From an uncultured Microbacterium sp. (GTDB lineage: Bacteria; Actinomycetota; Actinomycetes; Actinomycetales; Microbacteriaceae): DNA of 64,000 bases. The stretch spans positions 186,001-250,000 of the forward strand of contig CAJYHN010000002.1 of NCBI GenBank assembly GCA_913774665.1, in the 5' to 3' direction. The position numbers and the translations under genes were made by a program. Below are positions 9,729-33,027 of the stretch, in pieces. Position 1 is the stretch's first letter; each line of letters starts with the position of its first letter. The notes under the pieces were generated by a model that searched no databases, was not told the origin of the DNA, and was given only the letters and a program-made list of their open reading frames with translations.

Positions 9729-9792
9729 AGGGGCACGGGCGGATGCGGATAATCCCGGGGAATCGTGCCGTGAAGGGCGCACCGCGAGCATC

Positions 9793-9998
9793 GCGGCATC
9801 CGCTGCTCGCGCACCGCCGCGCAACCGTAGGCGCACGGTCGGTTTTCGGAGGATCGCGTCGTGAGCCCCCGCGCCATCCGTGGCTCGCGCACGGCTGCGC
9901 TACCGAGCGCGCGCGGGCGGGTGACGGGGATGGTTCCCCGAGCCCCGCGGCATCCGCTGCTCGCCCCACCGCGGGGCAGCCGGAACGCCCGTGCCGGG
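9793..9998. repeat. Imperfect tandem repeats of about 77 bp downstream of the HNH gene
   Basis: Three related copies begin at 9793, 9871 and 9947 (spacings 78 and 76 bp; the third is cut short near the end of the VOC gene). Each starts GCGSCATCCGYKGCTCG, continues with a CACCG/GCGC-rich block and, in the first two, ends with GTGAGCCCC or CCGAGCCCC. This fills the whole 270-bp intergenic space between the HNH gene and the VOC gene; I see no gene in it. Reading frames across it are not maintained between copies. Confidence 0.75.
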
Positions 9999-16038: not shown

Positions 16039-16084
16039 ATCGGTGTGTGTGACGAGCATACCGGGTCGTGCCCCACACACCGAT
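16039..16084. promoter_or_regulatory. 11-bp inverted repeat flanking the predicted helicase promoter
   Basis: ATCGGTGTGTG (16039-16049) and its exact complement CACACACCGAT (16074-16084) are separated by 24 nt that contain the minus-strand -10 candidate TATGCT. Perfect 11-bp arms around a -10 look like a dimeric repressor operator, or a long-loop hairpin in the 5' end of the transcript. Confidence 0.5.
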
Positions 16085-16100
16085 CAACGCTCTGCCTGCG

Positions 16101-16127
16101 GAGAAACGCTGCGACGCCGCGTTTCTC
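16101..16127. repeat. 9-bp inverted repeat upstream of the helicase promoter
   Basis: GAGAAACGC (16101-16109) and GCGTTTCTC (16119-16127) are perfect complements with a 9-nt spacer. It lies between the nusB 3' end and the helicase promoter, so it could be a second regulator site or part of transcription termination. Confidence 0.45.
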
Positions 16128-16243
16128 GGGACGAAGGGCGTTTATCGAAGCGCCCGCGCCGCCCTCGGACCGCGAACGGCTCCCCAGGTGACGACGTGCC
16201 GCCGGCGGACGCCGAAGGTCCCGGCATCCCGCCCGCAAACGCC

Positions 16244-22247: not shown

Positions 22248-24349
22248 CCGCCGTTCGGATTCTCGCGGCACCACTGCTGGAACTGCGCGACCGCCTTCTC
22301 CTGATCGGCGTAGGTGGTCGAGAACACCGTCTCGCCCGTCTTCAGGTTCACGGTCGTGAAGTAGTACCAGGGGCCGTCGACCGGATGCATCGCGGCGTCG
22401 ATCGCGAGGTCTCCGGCATTGGCGATGGGGCCGACCGGCAGCCCGGGGTACTTGTAGGTGTTGTACGGGTTGTCGCCGTTCAGGGCGTTCGCGCTCGACG
22501 ACGACGATCCGGCGTCGAGTTCGTTCGCGCCGTACTGCGCGGTGGAGTCCATCTGCAACAGACCGTGCGTCTCGGTGTTGTCGGGCTGCAGGCGGTTCTC
22601 GATCACGCGCGAGACCTTGTAGAAGTCCTCGCTGCTGCGCGCCTCGCGTTCGATGATCGAGGCGATCGTCAGGACGCGCTCCCGATCGTCGGGCGCGACA
22701 CCGGCCTTGTCGAGCGACTCGATCGTGCGCTTGACCATGCGGTCGATGACCTGCGGGGCGGTCACGCCGTCGTCGAAGTCGTAGGTGGCGGGGAAGATCC
22801 AGCCCTCGAGGGTCGACGCCGTCACTCCATAGGTCGACGGCGTTGCCACCGCCGCATCGAGGTCGGCGCGCGGGATGCTCGTCTGCTCGGAGATGATGTC
22901 GAGCGACTGCTTCAGGGTCAGCCCCTCGCGAAGCTGCACGGAATTGTCGAGCCTGCTCGCCGGGTCCTTCAGGGCGGCGAGCACCGCCGCCGAGGTCATC
23001 TGCTGCTGCAACTTGTAGACGCCGGGCTGGAACGTGAAACCGACGGCGTTGTCGACCATGTACTTGTAGAGCGAGTTGGAGGCCTTCGTGACCCCCGCCT
23101 CGAAGAGCTTGGGCGAGACGGACTGCCCCGTGTCGCCGCTCACGATCGTCACGCGGGCCTCGCCGGTGGCCTGGCCCGCCTCGTACTCGAGCGACTCCCC
23201 ATTGCCGAGGAACGCCTGCACGCGCTCCCCGTAGGTGTTCCACAGGGCGATACCTCCGCCGGCGACACCGCCGACGAGGACCAGCACGATCGCGAGGGCG
23301 ATCCAGCGACCGACGGACCGGCGCCGCTTGGGAGGCTTCTGCGGTGCCCACCCGATCTGCTGCGTGGTGGTCTCACCGGTGAACAGGTCTTCGAGGGATC
23401 CGGATGCCGCGCTCGAACGCGACGCTTCGGGGGCGGCGGCTGCGGCTCCGGCTCCGGCTCCGACGAGCACGGGCTCGCGATCGCGCGACGGTTCGGTGCG
23501 GCGGGCGTTCGCGCCGGCGGGGCGCGGGGTGTCGGCGGGGCGGGTCTCGCTGGCGCGCGGGGTCTCGGTGGAGCGCGGGGCTTCGAAGGAGCGCGGGGTC
23601 TCGGCGGCGCGCGGGGTCTCGGCGGCGCGCGGGGCGTCGGCGGAGCTCGGGGCCTCGGCTCGACGGGCGGCCGCTTGCCACACGGCGGACTGCGTGTCGC
23701 GGAACGGCTGTGCGTCGCGAGGAGGGTGCGCGTTCGGGGAGGCCGGCGCGGAGCGGGCGTCGAGCGCGTCGTCGGAGGACGATGGGGCGACCGAACGCGG
23801 ACCGGCGGCGGCAGCGGCCTGAGCGCGTGACGCCTCCTCCCGGACCGGCTGTGCGGCGCCGGGGGTTCCGGACGCGGTGGGGGCGCTCGTGCGACGGGGG
23901 CCGGGGGCGGTGTCGCCGCTGCGGCGCGGTCCGGGAGCGTCATCGGACCGGCCGGCCGGGAGGGGCGAGCGCTCGGACGCGGTCGAGGAAGCCGCGGCTC
24001 CGGGCAACGACGAGGGCTCTCCCCAGCGGGTGCCCTGCTGCTCCTCGGCGGCGCGGGGGGCCGGCGCGGGTGCCGAGGCGGCCGGGAGGGACGCGGTCTG
24101 GCGAGGCGCCTCGGCACGTGAGGTGGCGGCTGCGGAGTCGTCCGCTGCGCGAGCGGCCTGGTCCGATCCGGTGATCGGGGTCGCTTCCGTCGCGGCCCGG
24201 CGGGCCTCTCGAGCTGCTCGGCGCGAGGGCGGCGCGGCATCCGTCTGCGGCGCGGACTCCCGTGAGCTGCGCGCGCCGGTGCGCGGGTCGGGCAGACGAC
24301 CGTAGAGATCCGCGAACGGATCGCTCTCAGGGGGCTGGTTCTCGGGCAT
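22241..24349 (-). CDS. mltG: Endolytic murein transglycosylase MltG with long disordered cytoplasmic tail
   Basis: Cleaves nascent glycan strands at the membrane and may set strand length. 702 aa from ATG 24349. Residues 1-345 are a Pro/Ala/Arg/Glu-rich disordered region with short repeats (variants of ETPRA). One membrane helix follows (LAIVLVLVGGVAGGGIAL), then the extracellular LysM-like and YceG domains with the catalytic Glu in TIASIIEREAR and the signature HGLLQMDSTAQYG. Typical MltG is 340-400 aa, so the N-terminal extension nearly doubles it. Lies 1 nt after ruvX. Confidence 0.95.
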   Translation of the reverse strand: MPENQPPESDPFADLYGRLPDPRTGARSSRESAPQTDAAPPSRRAAREARRAATEATPITGSDQAARAADDSAAATSRAEAPRQTASLPAASAPAPAPRAAEEQQGTRWGEPSSLPGAAASSTASERSPLPAGRSDDAPGPRRSGDTAPGPRRTSAPTASGTPGAAQPVREEASRAQAAAAAGPRSVAPSSSDDALDARSAPASPNAHPPRDAQPFRDTQSAVWQAAARRAEAPSSADAPRAAETPRAAETPRSFEAPRSTETPRASETRPADTPRPAGANARRTEPSRDREPVLVGAGAGAAAAAPEASRSSAASGSLEDLFTGETTTQQIGWAPQKPPKRRRSVGRWIALAIVLVLVGGVAGGGIALWNTYGERVQAFLGNGESLEYEAGQATGEARVTIVSGDTGQSVSPKLFEAGVTKASNSLYKYMVDNAVGFTFQPGVYKLQQQMTSAAVLAALKDPASRLDNSVQLREGLTLKQSLDIISEQTSIPRADLDAAVATPSTYGVTASTLEGWIFPATYDFDDGVTAPQVIDRMVKRTIESLDKAGVAPDDRERVLTIASIIEREARSSEDFYKVSRVIENRLQPDNTETHGLLQMDSTAQYGANELDAGSSSSSANALNGDNPYNTYKYPGLPVGPIANAGDLAIDAAMHPVDGPWYYFTTVNLKTGETVFSTTYADQEKAVAQFQQWCRENPNGGC

Positions 24350-24820: not shown

Positions 24821-24824
<4 letters not shown>
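24351..24824 (-). CDS. ruvX: Holliday junction resolvase-like / pre-16S rRNA nuclease RuvX (YqgF)
   Basis: 157 aa from GTG 24824, which overlaps the alaS stop as GTGA. RNase H-fold with GIDVGRARVGVARSD at the N-terminus (first acidic residue), EILVGLPLNLRGE and VDERLST in the middle, and IVDQVAAVVLLQQAL at the C-terminus with the last catalytic Asp. The family processes the 5' end of 16S rRNA. The alaS-ruvX-mltG order is conserved in actinobacteria. Confidence 0.94.
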
Positions 24825-27490
<2,666 letters not shown>

Positions 27491-27552
27491 GGCGGGTCTT
27501 TCCGTACGCATGCGGATCCGCCCCACGTACCGGGGCGGGAGGCCGGAGGGGG

Positions 27553-27843
27553 TCAGTCGGAGGAGGAAACGGCCTTCTTGGCCGCGGCGGCGGCGGATTC
27601 CACCGCGTCGCCGGTTTTGTCGACAGCGGAGGACGCGACGCCCTTGGCGTCGTCGATGATCTCGGAGAGACGGTTCTCCTGCTGGTGGTAGGCGTCGCTC
27701 ATGTGGTCGGTGAACTCGCTGATGCGCGAGTCGAGCTGCGCGAGCAGCTCCTGACCGCGAGGGTCCTTGTTGACGAGATGGGCGGCGACGAAACCGCCGG
27801 CGATACCCAGCGCGAACCAGACGAGGCTTTTCACGATCACCAC
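27553..27843 (-). CDS. Small membrane-anchored protein of unknown function
   Basis: 96 aa. Residues 3-23 form a membrane helix (KSLVWFALGIAGGFVAAHLV); the rest is a predicted amphipathic helix (ISEFTDHMSDAYHQQENRL, then Ala/Lys-rich ends) likely to form coiled coil. Start is one of three nearby GTG codons (27843, 27840, 27834); GAGG lies 5 nt before the first. Small membrane proteins are often found between rpsD and alaS in actinobacteria. Function unknown. Confidence 0.75.
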   Translation of the reverse strand: MVIVKSLVWFALGIAGGFVAAHLVNKDPRGQELLAQLDSRISEFTDHMSDAYHQQENRLSEIIDDAKGVASSAVDKTGDAVESAAAAAKKAVSSSD

Positions 27844-28014
27844 TTCTTCCTCGATACGACGCCGCGATCACGGCCCTCTCCATCGTAGGCGAGGGGCCCC
27901 GCTTCCCGGGCAAAGGCGCGGACGCCGCCCGCCCCGCCCCCACCCCGTTCACGCAGACGGTCACGGGTCGGCGAACCCGCGACCTTCGGATGGCCTCTGC
28001 GTTCATTCGCCGCT
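27844..28014. other. Intergenic segment with degenerate first repeat unit
   Basis: No gene seen. 27962-27984 holds GGTCG, a 9-nt spacer and CGACC followed by a GCGTTCATTCGCCG element, which looks like a decayed unit of the array that follows. Confidence 0.4.
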
Positions 28015-28532
28015 CATGGTCGGGTGCGCGGCGGTGCCCCGACCATCTCAGGCAATCGAATCCACCCCCTCGGCGTTCATTTGCCGCACATAGTCGCCAG
28101 CGCGGCGAGGTTGCGACCATCTGGGGCAATCGAATCCACGCCTTCAGCGTTCATTCGCCGCACATGGTCGCCAGCGCGGCGAGGTTTCGACCATCTCAGG
28201 CAATCGAACCAGCGCCCTCGGCGTTCATTTGCCGCACATGGTCGCCAGCGCGTCGAGGTTGCGACCCTCTGGGGCAATCGAATCCACGCCCTCGGCCTTC
28301 GTTCGCCGCACATGGTCGGGTGCGCGGCGGGGCCCCGACCATCTCGAGCAATCCAACCAATGCCCTCGGCCTTCGTTCGCCGCACATGGTCGCTGGCGCA
28401 GCGAGGTTGCGACCATCTCAGGCAATCGAACCCAAGCCCTCCGCATTCATTCGCCGCACATGGTCGCCGGCGCGGCGGTGCCCCGACCATCTCAGGCAAA
28501 CGAACCAACGCCCCCGCGCCCATCCTCCGCAG
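28015..28532. repeat. Seven-unit 74-bp tandem array; each unit contains a conserved hairpin
   Basis: Units begin at 28015, 28089, 28163, 28237, 28311, 28385 and 28459, exactly 74 bp apart. Each starts with ATGGTCG and 24-29 nt later has CGACCAT (unit 2 and unit 4 have one mismatch), making a 7-9 bp stem. The next stem pair is G-C in units 1 and 5 but C-G in units 2, 4 and 6, a compensatory change. Unit 7 has the left arm of one type and the right arm of the other. The array lies between the rpsD terminator and the small membrane protein gene. All six frames stay largely open, but 74 is not divisible by three and no start or ribosome site is convincing. Confidence 0.93.
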
Positions 28533-28571
28533 ACGACGAAGCTTCGCGCGAAGCGCAACCCGCGAACGACA

Positions 28572-28599
28572 AAGGGCGCCGGGAGAACCCGACGCCCTT
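28572..28599 (-). terminator. Rho-independent terminator of rpsD
   Basis: A 12-bp stem on the minus strand (AAGGGCGTCGGG, loop TTCT, CCCGGCGCCCTT, with one G-U pair) follows the rpsD stop by 16 nt and is followed by TTTG. It separates rpsD from the 74-bp array. Confidence 0.85.
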
Positions 28600-28615
28600 C
28601 GTGTGCTCGCTGGGA

Positions 28616-29245
28616 TCAGCGGGCGGCGTAGTACTCGACGACGAGCTGCACGTCACACGTGACGGGCACCTCGGCGCGCTTGGGACGACGCACGAGCTTC
28701 GCCTGCAGCGTGGAGAGGTCGACCTCGAGGTAGCCCGGAACGGGGGGCAGCACTTCGGCGTGCCCACCAGCGGCGGCGACCTGGAAGGGCTCGAGGCCCT
28801 CACTCTTGGTCTTGACGTGGATCAGCTGACCCGGCTTCACGCGGAACGACGGGCGGTCCACGAGCTGGCCGTCGACCATGATGTGGCGGTGCACGACGAG
28901 CTGGCGAGCCTGCGCGGTGGTGCGGGCGAAGCCCGAACGCACGACGAGGGCGTCCAGACGCATCTCGAGCAGCTCGACCAGGTTCTCACCGGTCAGGCCC
29001 TCGGTGCGGCGGGCCTCGTTGAACGCGATGCGAAGCTGCTTCTCGCGGATGCCGTACTGCTCGCGCAGACGCTGCTTCTCACGGAGACGGACGGCGTAGT
29101 CGCTGTCGGCCTTGCGCTTGGTGCGGCCGTGCTCGCCGGGAGCGTAGGGACGCTTCTCGAGGTAGCGGGCGGCCTTAGGGGTGAGTGCGACGCCGAGGGC
29201 GCGCGACAGACGCACCTTACGGCGGTCCTGAGACTTCGTGGTCAC
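28616..29245 (-). CDS. rpsD: 30S ribosomal protein S4
   Basis: 209 aa. N-terminal RKVRLSRALGVAL, the S4 RNA-binding domain MRLDALVVRSGFARTTAQAR and LVVHRHIMVDGQLVDRPSF, and the C-terminal VVEYYAR-like end. The zinc-binding Cys cluster of some S4 proteins is absent, so this is the C-minus paralogue type. GTG start with GGAAGGAG 8 nt upstream. It is a lone gene here, outside the ribosomal operons, and S4 may autoregulate through its 150-nt leader. A -10 candidate TAGCAT lies near 29400. Confidence 0.97.
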   Translation of the reverse strand: MTTKSQDRRKVRLSRALGVALTPKAARYLEKRPYAPGEHGRTKRKADSDYAVRLREKQRLREQYGIREKQLRIAFNEARRTEGLTGENLVELLEMRLDALVVRSGFARTTAQARQLVVHRHIMVDGQLVDRPSFRVKPGQLIHVKTKSEGLEPFQVAAAGGHAEVLPPVPGYLEVDLSTLQAKLVRRPKRAEVPVTCDVQLVVEYYAAR

Positions 29246-31383: not shown

Positions 31384-33027
31384 GTGACTTCCGCTCCCAC
31401 TCCCGAGACCTCCGACCCGCGCGACGACGCGAGCAGCGCCGAGGTCGATCCCACCGTCACGACCCCGGTCGAGGCGGAAACCGACTCTTCCGACGCCGTT
31501 CCGGCCCCGGATCCCTCCGCTCCCGACGCCGACGCCTCGTCCGGCGAGTCGTCGCTCGACGAGCAGGCGACGGATGCCGCTGACCCCGCGTCCCCCACCG
31601 AGCCCGCTGCCGAAGAGCCCGCTGCTGAAGAGCCCGCTGTTGAAGAGCCCGCCGCCGCGGCGCCGGTCGAAGACGAAGAGGCCGCCGCTTCGAAGGACGA
31701 CGCCGCTCCCGCCGTGCAGTCCGCCGCTGCGCAGCCCGCGGCCCCGCGTCCCGGCCTTCGACTCCCCGGGCCTCCTCCCGGCAAGACCGCGTCCACCTCG
31801 GCCACCCAGCCCTGGGGCCGCGTCGACGACGAGGGAACCGTCTCGGTCCGCGAGGGCGACGACTGGCGCGTCGTGGGCCAGTACCCCGACGGCACGCCGG
31901 CCGAGGCGCTGGCCTATTTCCAGCGCAAGTTCTCCGACCTCGCCGGTGAGGTCACTCTGATCGAGACGCGCCACCGTCGCGGAGGGGCCTCGGCATCGGA
32001 CCTGCGTTCGACGGCGAAGACGCTTCGCGGCAAGCTGGAGGGTGCGGCCGCCGTGGGCGACCTCGCCGCTCTCATCGCCCGTGTCGACGCCCTCACGGCT
32101 GAGCTCGCCGAAGCGAGTGAGACCGAGGCCGTCGCCGCGAAGCAGGCCACCGAAGAGGCCGTGCGCGAGCGCACCGCGATCGTCGAAGAGGCCGAGGCCC
32201 TCGCCGCCCGCGACCCGCAGACGGTGCAGTGGAAGCAGATGACCGCCGACATGACCGCGCTGTTCGACCGGTGGCAGGCCCACCAGCAGAACGGTCCGCG
32301 CCTGTCGAAGTCGACCGCGCAGCAGCTCTGGCGCCGCTTCCGCGACGCGCGCGCCACGGTCGATCGTCACCGCCGCGAGTTCTTCTCGTCGCTCGACGAG
32401 ACCCACAAGTCGGCGCGCGAGGCCAAGACGCGTCTGGTCGAGCGCGCCGAGGCCCTCGCCCCGCGTGGTGAGGACGGGATCGGGGCGTACCGCGACCTCC
32501 TCGACGCGTGGAAGGCCTCGGGTCGCGCCGGCCGCAAGGTCGACGATGCGCTGTGGGCTCGCTTCAAGGCCGCCGGCGACGCGCTCTACGGAGCTCGTAT
32601 CGAGCGCGAGTCCGCCGATGCCGAGGCGTCGAAGGAGAAGATCGAGCAGAAGCGCGCTCTCCTCGAGCAGGCCGCGCCCATCGTCGACGAGAAGAACCTC
32701 GCGACGGCCCGTCAGAAGCTGACCGCCATCCAGCGTCAGTGGGACGAGATCGGACGCATCTTCCCGCGCGACAAGGAGCGCGTCCTCGACGACGAGCTCC
32801 GCAAGATCGAGCAGAGCGTGCGCACCCGCGAAGACGCCGACTGGAAGCGCAACGACCCCGAGCAGAAGGCCCGCGCCAACGACATGACGCGTCAGCTCAC
32901 CGACGCGATCGACAAGCTCGAGGCCGAGCTGGCCGAGGCCGAGTCGCGCGGCGACAAGCGTGCCGCGGCGCAGGCGTCGGAGGCTCTCGAAGCGCGTCGT
33001 ACCTGGCTGCGCGCCCTCGGCGGCTGA
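31384..33027 (+). CDS. DUF349-domain coiled-coil protein
   Basis: 547 aa from GTG 31384 (GAGG 8 nt upstream; another GTG at 31375 is less well placed). Residues 1-140 are an acidic Ala/Pro/Glu-rich tail with EEPAAEEPAVEEP repeats. From 140 on there are highly charged helices with repeated DUF349 units (WKQM near 285, W-x-x-F at LWRRFRDAR, LWARFKAAGD). No enzyme motif is visible. DUF349 proteins are widespread in actinobacteria and lack a firm function. TAGGCT at 31329-31334 is a possible -10. Confidence 0.85.
   Translation: MTSAPTPETSDPRDDASSAEVDPTVTTPVEAETDSSDAVPAPDPSAPDADASSGESSLDEQATDAADPASPTEPAAEEPAAEEPAVEEPAAAAPVEDEEAAASKDDAAPAVQSAAAQPAAPRPGLRLPGPPPGKTASTSATQPWGRVDDEGTVSVREGDDWRVVGQYPDGTPAEALAYFQRKFSDLAGEVTLIETRHRRGGASASDLRSTAKTLRGKLEGAAAVGDLAALIARVDALTAELAEASETEAVAAKQATEEAVRERTAIVEEAEALAARDPQTVQWKQMTADMTALFDRWQAHQQNGPRLSKSTAQQLWRRFRDARATVDRHRREFFSSLDETHKSAREAKTRLVERAEALAPRGEDGIGAYRDLLDAWKASGRAGRKVDDALWARFKAAGDALYGARIERESADAEASKEKIEQKRALLEQAAPIVDEKNLATARQKLTAIQRQWDEIGRIFPRDKERVLDDELRKIEQSVRTREDADWKRNDPEQKARANDMTRQLTDAIDKLEAELAEAESRGDKRAAAQASEALEARRTWLRALGG

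Follow-up and report, generated by a model that had tools for sequence, protein, structure and literature searches.

What kind of element is an array of seven palindromes, set at a fixed period behind rpsD, and what might act on it? The array lies in the window, by which we mean the whole 64,000-nucleotide stretch that was analyzed (G000:C2:186001-250000), taken from a genome of 3.58 Mb on 14 contigs (G000, here the own genome), for which gene content and gene neighborhood suggest Microbacterium/Microbacteriaceae. We consider it probable that it consists of tandem REP-like 57-bp palindromes that are the putative cognate sites of a 256-aa Vsr-like/EDxHD-type endonuclease. The features at this locus are as follows.

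24821 to 27490, reverse strand: alaS, assigned by Pfam
27553 to 27843, reverse strand: 96-aa gene between the array and alaS, a gene call with no Pfam match
27994 to 28513, no strand assigned: complete tandem array at a 74-bp period, in which 17-bp linkers separate seven 57-bp palindromes
28003 to 28059, forward strand: unit 1, 57-bp palindrome of the G:C stem type
28077 to 28133, forward strand: unit 2, 57-bp palindrome with the arm substitution ATAGTCG
28151 to 28207, forward strand: unit 3, 57-bp palindrome
28225 to 28281, forward strand: unit 4, 57-bp palindrome with the arm substitution CGACCCT
28299 to 28355, forward strand: unit 5, 57-bp palindrome of the G:C stem type
28373 to 28429, forward strand: unit 6, 57-bp palindrome
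28447 to 28503, forward strand: unit 7, 57-bp palindrome, a mosaic of both stem types
About 28571 to 28600, reverse strand: terminator-like hairpin of rpsD, recognized by eye, adjoining the array and separate from it
28616 to 29245, reverse strand: rpsD (Pfam Ribosomal_S4 and S4), flanking the array

For the array, TRF reports 7.0 copies at a period of 74 with 0% indels, and comparison of the unit positions gives 74 for all successive spacings, in agreement with the seven copies at exactly 74 bp described in an initial annotation of this DNA. Each unit comprises a 57-bp imperfect palindrome and a 17-bp linker. The seven palindromes together span 28003-28503, so that the extent first given, 28015-28532, is approximately right but needs shifting at both ends: the first palindrome starts 12 bp earlier and the last ends 29 bp earlier. 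Since the linkers resemble each other and TRF takes the 74-bp unit whole, the array lacks the unique spacers between repeats by which a CRISPR is recognized, as the initial annotation had stated. The stem arms ATGGTCG/CGACCAT, initially thought to be kept throughout, are altered in unit 2 (ATAGTCG) and unit 4 (CGACCCT). The reported swap of the adjacent pair is real for units 1 and 5 (G:C) versus units 2, 4, and 6 (C:G), but the pair is broken in units 3 and 7. Units 1 and 5 do share one stem type, and the sequence of unit 7 is indeed a mosaic.

The array has the terminator of rpsD on one side and the next gene on the other, and its annotated position just past a terminator is borne out by the hairpin after rpsD, which by eye is recognizable in 30 compared loci. 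In the 30 nearest loci, the spacer downstream of rpsD ranges from 131 to 772 nt (that of G016 being cut by a contig end), and clear copies of the window repeat were seen by eye in five of them, namely, those of the own genome, G366, G309, G367, and G336. An empty-site comparison did not yield readable insertion ends, the spacer being too diverged among the 30 loci. As judged by eye, the same spacer (L111-L139) is a hot spot that carries other palindromes or repeats in several relatives: G110 and G071, for example, have CACAACTCC...GGAGTTGTG, and a TCGGGTCGCGCTCTCGCGCGGCC-like unit recurs several times in G366. Elsewhere in the window there is a 67-bp inverted repeat at 16081-16147 (CGATCAACGC...GCGTTTATCG), which resembles a 67-bp family found three times in L196, and TRF lists tandem repeats at 9778-9972 (78-bp unit, 2.5 copies), 23515-23659 (18-bp unit, 8.2 copies), and 31600-31657 (15-bp unit, 3.9 copies).

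A genome-wide search with a covariance model had been suggested. The model R1, built from own-genome units, found 20 more units in three arrays, plus three further copies, beyond the window array.

C2, about 437.4-438.2 kb: 10-unit array, after a formamidopyrimidine-DNA glycosylase gene
C2, about 592.3 kb: 4-unit array, after an MFS gene
C2, about 604.8 kb: 6-unit array, after a nicotinate phosphoribosyltransferase gene
C8, 38.6 and 39.8-40.0 kb: three copies

The unit spacing varies by array (74, 81-84, 83-93, and 107-121), and the palindrome length is nearly constant across the arrays, at 57 bp in 25 of the 27 units and 56 and 58 in the remaining two. By eye, the flank of the 10-unit array (L009 2690-2860) is similar to the 3' end of the MFS gene that precedes the 4-unit array (L010 1640-1830), as though a flank had been duplicated along with its array.

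Relatives of the repeat are found in 63 of 366 genomes of the same genus at an R1 E value of 0.001 or better. These are again palindromes of about 57 bp, with different outer arms, and several are again tandem, with a period of 72 to 77 or 84 bp. A second model, R2, made from 52 diverse units of which 12 come from the own genome, detects the repeat in 81 of 299 genomes and, counted by genus, in 41 of 85 genera of the bacterial family. Among 198 genomes sampled across the order it matches 22, of which 9 belong to the home family and 13 to other families, f14 contributing the most (five). Among 198 sampled across the phylum it matches 3, these being the own genome and two weak matches at 1.0e-4 and 4.4e-5. 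In f14, another family of the order, G783 has 21 matches (best E, 4.9e-7) and G703 has 3 (best E, 3.9e-9), so that this class of element reaches beyond the home family. An exact 18-mer sought in 11.3 million genome contigs, from which the own genome was possibly excluded, occurred in just 20 stretches with one match each; being single and scattered over unrelated phyla, these are read as chance. Plasmids and phages gave no blastn match, and viral contigs gave no match to one exact pattern. We found no report of the palindrome family, or of a nuclease-palindrome link, in the open-access literature, which this search covered.

The paired stem changes had been taken to argue for selection on structure. 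Within the own genome such covariation is weak: the 27 units hold 10 double-change cells, compared with 6.1 +/- 1.9 after shuffling, a count reached in 20 of 500 shuffles, and the paired percentage is slightly in excess (83.2 versus 81.6). The array alone is thus weak evidence for structure. Across genomes, however, the signal is strong. In 52 units, double changes occur at 19 of 24 pairs, with 170 double-change cells versus 70.7 +/- 7.4 in shuffles and a covariation score of 0.334 versus 0.138 +/- 0.009 (maximum, 0.107 with the partner slid). Arm sequences diverge between lineages with strong compensatory change, and the length stays at about 57. Because R1 rewarded pairs 1 to 9 and 14 to 21, its hits are biased toward paired arms there; at pairs 10 to 13, which are not in R1, 61, 50, 78, and 54% of 46 units are Watson-Crick versus an expected 55, 43, 69, and 33%, an excess that is modest but for the last pair. 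The length tally of 109 loci (98 of 57 bp, seven of 58, one of 56, two of 55, and one of 53) comes from a 57-position model that leans toward 57, and when inverted repeats were counted without such bias in 1.18 Mb from three genomes, many were found, with widely varying lengths and no single peak at 57. The half-site spacing peaks at 23 (15/65), mostly from the arrays of the own genome.

Is the symmetry that of an RNA? The suggestion of a structured RNA array found no support. An Rfam scan of 27500-29000 gave as its only match tpke11, at 18.5 bits against a gathering score of 43 (E, 0.67). Folding z-scores ranged from -0.43 to -3.65 for the single 74-nt units of the seven-unit array as RNA and from -0.70 to -2.32 for the 57-mers as single-stranded DNA, so that most units, with values near those of shuffles, are ordinary in folding. 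RNA folding should favor G-U pairs. Read in the sense of the flanking co-directional genes, 53 units contain 947 Watson-Crick pairs, 17 G-U, 36 A-C, and 60 other mismatches, with more A-C in 21 units, more G-U in 8, and equal numbers in 24. These counts were made in gene sense and not in the orientation of the covariance model, which is itself dictated by the model; the unit ends are those placed by the model, and all units were retained. The lack of a preference for G-U over A-C speaks for a constraint at the DNA level, or a DNA process, rather than an RNA fold.

Selection is not the sole possible cause of such a pattern. Template switching during replication occurs at quasi-palindromes, and a neutral process of this kind could symmetrize long palindromes while tandem duplication adds the rest, with no partner needed. 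This would yield just the Watson-Crick symmetry without G-U preference and the compensatory-looking changes that we observe. We nevertheless regard it as a very unlikely explanation, as it accounts neither for a length of about 57 across genera and the conserved TGGTCG/CGACCA core nor for the gene 3'-end preference and the tie to one gene family described below.

The repeats occupy a particular position relative to genes. According to a home-made gene caller, 38 of the 109 loci are convergent, 53 co-directional, and 13 divergent; the caller places 3 within a gene and leaves 2 unassigned. Background spacers of at least 60 bp in 1.18 Mb from three genomes number 84 convergent, 278 co-directional, and 139 divergent (convergent versus divergent, repeats against background, p 1.9e-6). 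The median distance is 32 bp on the stop side, where 64 of 129 distances are 30 bp or less, and 114 on the start side, where 5 of 79 are; of the 53 co-directional copies, 43 are closer to the stop than to the start. All this is what would be expected if the palindromes were bidirectional terminators or 3'-end stabilizers kept for RNA structure, the window array being an overgrown terminator region. In the pckG spacer, for which our query, L078, was compared with 30 related loci, a window-type 57-mer is found in two (G092 and G015), and by eye the loci with the 57-mer palindrome have no other terminator. Such a role is nonetheless improbable in our view, given the G-U and A-C counts in the transcribed sense and the separate hairpin that already ends rpsD in the window. 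It would also leave unexplained the length of about 57, the genome-specific arms, and the matching flanks of one gene family. As a separate observation, L141, L142, L143, and L146 carry, at the place of the window-type 57-mer in the pckG spacer, another palindrome of exactly 57 bp, CGACCCGACGC...GCGTCGGGTCG.

Among the identities suggested initially, a REP-like family comes closest, in view of copies that are dispersed, mostly intergenic, palindromic, genome-specific in their arms, and arranged in tandem arrays. Like REP/REPIN elements with their RAYT (TnpA_REP), the repeats form several families per genome, with tandem and paired copies, and an enzyme gene is flanked by its own repeats. The RAYT-type transposase suggested as a target of search was not found: Pfam Y1_Tnp (PF01797) has no match in the own genome, and hence no Y1 transposase flanked by repeats was found there, while the control search gave matches in 5 of 14 named genomes. 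What emerged in its place is encoded on a different contig, outside the stretch seen in the initial annotation: a Vsr-like nuclease. At 14 loci we examined the gene between two copies of the repeat about 0.2 to 1.7 kb apart, and in 7 of them it encodes one kind of protein, related to Pfam MTES_1575 and DUF559; four of the seven proteins are above the curated Pfam cutoff for either family and three are below. In the own genome, this nuclease is the 256-aa protein encoded at G000:C8:39035-39802, between the C8 copies of the R1 repeat. Three of the seven bracketed nucleases are orthologous (own genome, G365, and G366).

In 22 genomes searched, PF18741, the MTES_1575 domain, has 3 to 10 matches per genome. 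Among the matches listed and judged by eye, 13 of the 22 genomes have a nuclease no more than 1.2 kb from a 57-mer, and 9 show none beside one; as seven of the 13 were known beforehand, the fair figure is 6 of 15 others. The reverse test started from 70 PF18741 loci, 30 chosen by a tool and 40 by us, including six for their known adjacency, with 233 random genes of 180 to 420 aa from G514, G000, and G092 as controls. A palindrome was counted when an inverted repeat of 45 to 125 bp with an ungapped score of at least 12 lay within 600 bp of the gene. Of 65 short nucleases, 23 have palindromes on both sides, 13 upstream only, 9 downstream only, and 20 none, whereas the corresponding figures for the controls are 2, 17, 27, and 187. 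Hence, 45/65 nucleases versus 46/233 controls have any palindrome (p 1.8e-13), and 23/65 versus 2/233 have them on both sides (p 3.8e-15). Without the six loci picked for adjacency, the figures are 20, 12, 8, and 19 of 59 (40/59 any), and for the tool-chosen loci alone they are 6, 6, 4, and 10 of 26 (p 1.4e-5 for both sides). A further 30 loci, selected for similarity to the own nuclease and in some cases cut by contig ends, gave a weaker result of 4, 5, 4, and 17 (13/30 any, 4/30 both). PF18741 domains also occur in frames of about 1,250 to 1,300 codons in many genomes (e.g., G000:C1:181839-181964), and in four of five such long-frame loci a palindrome is absent by this definition.

The two palindromes around one gene mostly resemble each other. 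With an arm score of 10 or more as a match, 19 of 23 genes have matching flanks, versus 8 matches in 253 between-gene comparisons (p 1.7e-19). For instance, 57-mers of the sequence CGAGGTCCC...GGGACCTCG flank the nuclease of L353 on both sides, and L326, L358, L359, L361, and L365 are bracketed in the same manner but with other arms. Orthologous nucleases of different species share a palindrome family, as in L328 and L363 (TGTCCCACTTATGG, 51 bp), L359 and L362, the group of L314, L320, L324, and L327, and L300 and L302. We searched 448 kb of the own contig, a figure in which window and bulk sequence overlap by 10 kb, for the arms of six palindromes that flank nucleases. Four of the six families gave inverted arm pairs there: the window type with 14 (ten of 51 to 52 bp arm to arm and four spanning units), L331 with 6 (five of 82 bp, four of those consecutive), L328 with 4 (three of 51 bp), and L327 with 2 (both 82 bp). 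L321 and L329 arms gave none in this sequence, and shuffled control arms gave 0 to 0.2 pairs per search.

The palindromes beside the nuclease could have a more local function. In that case, the nuclease would be a defense or restriction protein, the bracketing palindromes its own operators, and the dispersed copies decoys or other operators. Upstream palindromes are often within about 340 bp of the nuclease start, the nuclease domain has weak PADLOC matches (PDC-S37; E, 1e-4), and its first description was from Microbacterium testaceum, as part of a Vsr-fold REase with a fused HEPN (PMC3710099), all of which would suit such a protein. However, operators are seldom perfect palindromes of 57 to 104 bp in tandem arrays beside rpsD, and copies also lie directly after the nuclease stop codon, which makes this an unlikely account in our opinion.

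Repeats and nucleases also vary together across genomes. A tree of 63 nucleases splits into two clades with 31 members each, besides a single long branch. Clade A palindromes are 65 to 104 bp (present in 20/31) and clade B palindromes 51 to 78 bp (present in 27/31, with eleven set to 57 by label), a difference in length with a Mann-Whitney p of 4.7e-8 when shared descent is ignored. The window-type label changes 6 times on the tree versus a shuffled mean of 10.3, with none of 500 shuffles as low; kinship is ignored here too, and the low count is partly due to five rows that are orthologues. The own-clade nuclease (79 to 100% identity) is present in 7 of 80 genomes that we chose (31 with R1 E of 1e-5 or better, 28 near relatives, and 21 arbitrary), namely, the own genome, G365, G366, G367, G073, G166, and G336; apart from the own genome, these are six of the eight that score best with R1. 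Leaving aside those eight and the own genome, the other 71 of the 80, including the 28 near relatives by rpsD, lack it, and G309 and G316 have strong repeats without an own-clade nuclease. R1 repeats flank all seven own-clade nucleases, and weak ones are found at three of 23 other nuclease loci. The own-clade locus is syntenic, with an MFS gene at the right in six cases and a contig end in the seventh, and so looks inherited rather than mobile. In sum, palindromes and nucleases co-occur and show a partial co-phylogeny.

This distribution bears on the idea that the palindromes are REP-like repeats moved by another enzyme, such as a transposase outside PF01797, with the nuclease a chance passenger between copies. 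Families that are dispersed, intergenic, genome specific, and in tandem arrays would fit, as would the many palindrome families and the unbracketed nucleases. Yet Y1_Tnp, the sole transposase family searched, is missing from the own genome, and a passenger would not produce the 23/65 versus 2/233 bracketing, the matching flanks, the length by clade, or the own-clade co-occurrence. We hold this explanation to be improbable.

As for the enzyme, clade B keeps E153, D185, E196, H202, and D212 in 31, 30, 31, 31, and 31 of 31 proteins, so that the E-D-x-H-D catalytic residues are present, at positions which we take to be those of the published EDxHD motif. Clade A retains the acidic residues (E or Q at 196) and has the histidine in 5/31 only. 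A PDB profile search gave no significant match, the best nucleases being 3r3p (E, 0.27) and 3hrl (E, 0.43). A review (PMC3943268) describes the EDxHD enzyme I-Bth0305I as forming a dimer on a nearly 60-bp target, a length close to 57, which leads us to propose one subunit per arm. The palindromes are, then, probably the binding sites of the nucleases that they bracket; their association is what the data demonstrate, and binding, cutting, the dimer, and any part in spreading are inferred from it. Each of two subunits may recognize a single arm (about 20 bp), with TGGTCG as the inner motif and a variable outer arm; the need for both arms to fit one protein surface would account for the exact two-fold symmetry, the length near 57, and arms that drift with the protein. 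Binding or cutting at a palindrome might in turn promote recombination between copies, by which copies would be homogenized within a genome, tandem arrays such as that in the window grown and shrunk, and copies retained near the nuclease gene. With odds that we put slightly below even, the whole may be a new class of selfish repeat system, in which each of several nuclease paralogues in a genome owns private, two-fold symmetric palindromes of fixed length, spreads or homogenizes them by dimer cutting, and co-evolves with them. The window array would in that event be one private family, tandemly amplified.

We liken these elements to REP-RAYT in their working and do not count them as members, because size and stem differ and Y1_Tnp is absent. 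REPs bear a GTAG or CGTC tag. They are 20 to 40 bp with stems of 5 to 13 bp (PMC3733652), whereas here the arms are about 20 bp, the total is 57 in 98/109 loci, and other families measure 51 to 104; the enzyme is a tyrosine transposase there and a Vsr-like nuclease here. The CGTC-tagged REP families are alike in that they are reported to have no dedicated transposase, and differ in their 8- to 9-bp stems and 4- to 5-bp loops (PMC3733652). I-Bth0305I and other EDxHD homing endonucleases share similar invariant acidic and histidine residues with clade B, and the nearly 60-bp dimer target (PMC3943268) compares with our 57-bp palindrome; in contrast, the putative site here is genome-wide and on both sides of the gene, and an intron or intein was not seen. 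The fused conflict-system proteins with an MTES_1575 REase domain (PF18741) have the same nuclease domain family but are large, while the bracketed genes are small (mostly 200 to 350 aa).

The means by which short palindromic repeats spread and are maintained in bacteria have long been in question, with an answer so far just for REPs with RAYT. If our reading is true, a second, unrelated enzyme family is tied to palindromes, which would imply a new mechanism, with an EDxHD-type nuclease doing for palindromes what the tyrosine transposase does for REP elements. Many DUF559/MTES_1575 genes would thereby gain a function, and each nuclease would be predicted to bind the palindrome of its own gene and not that of its neighbor, so that dozens of natural nuclease-site pairs with differing specificities may exist.
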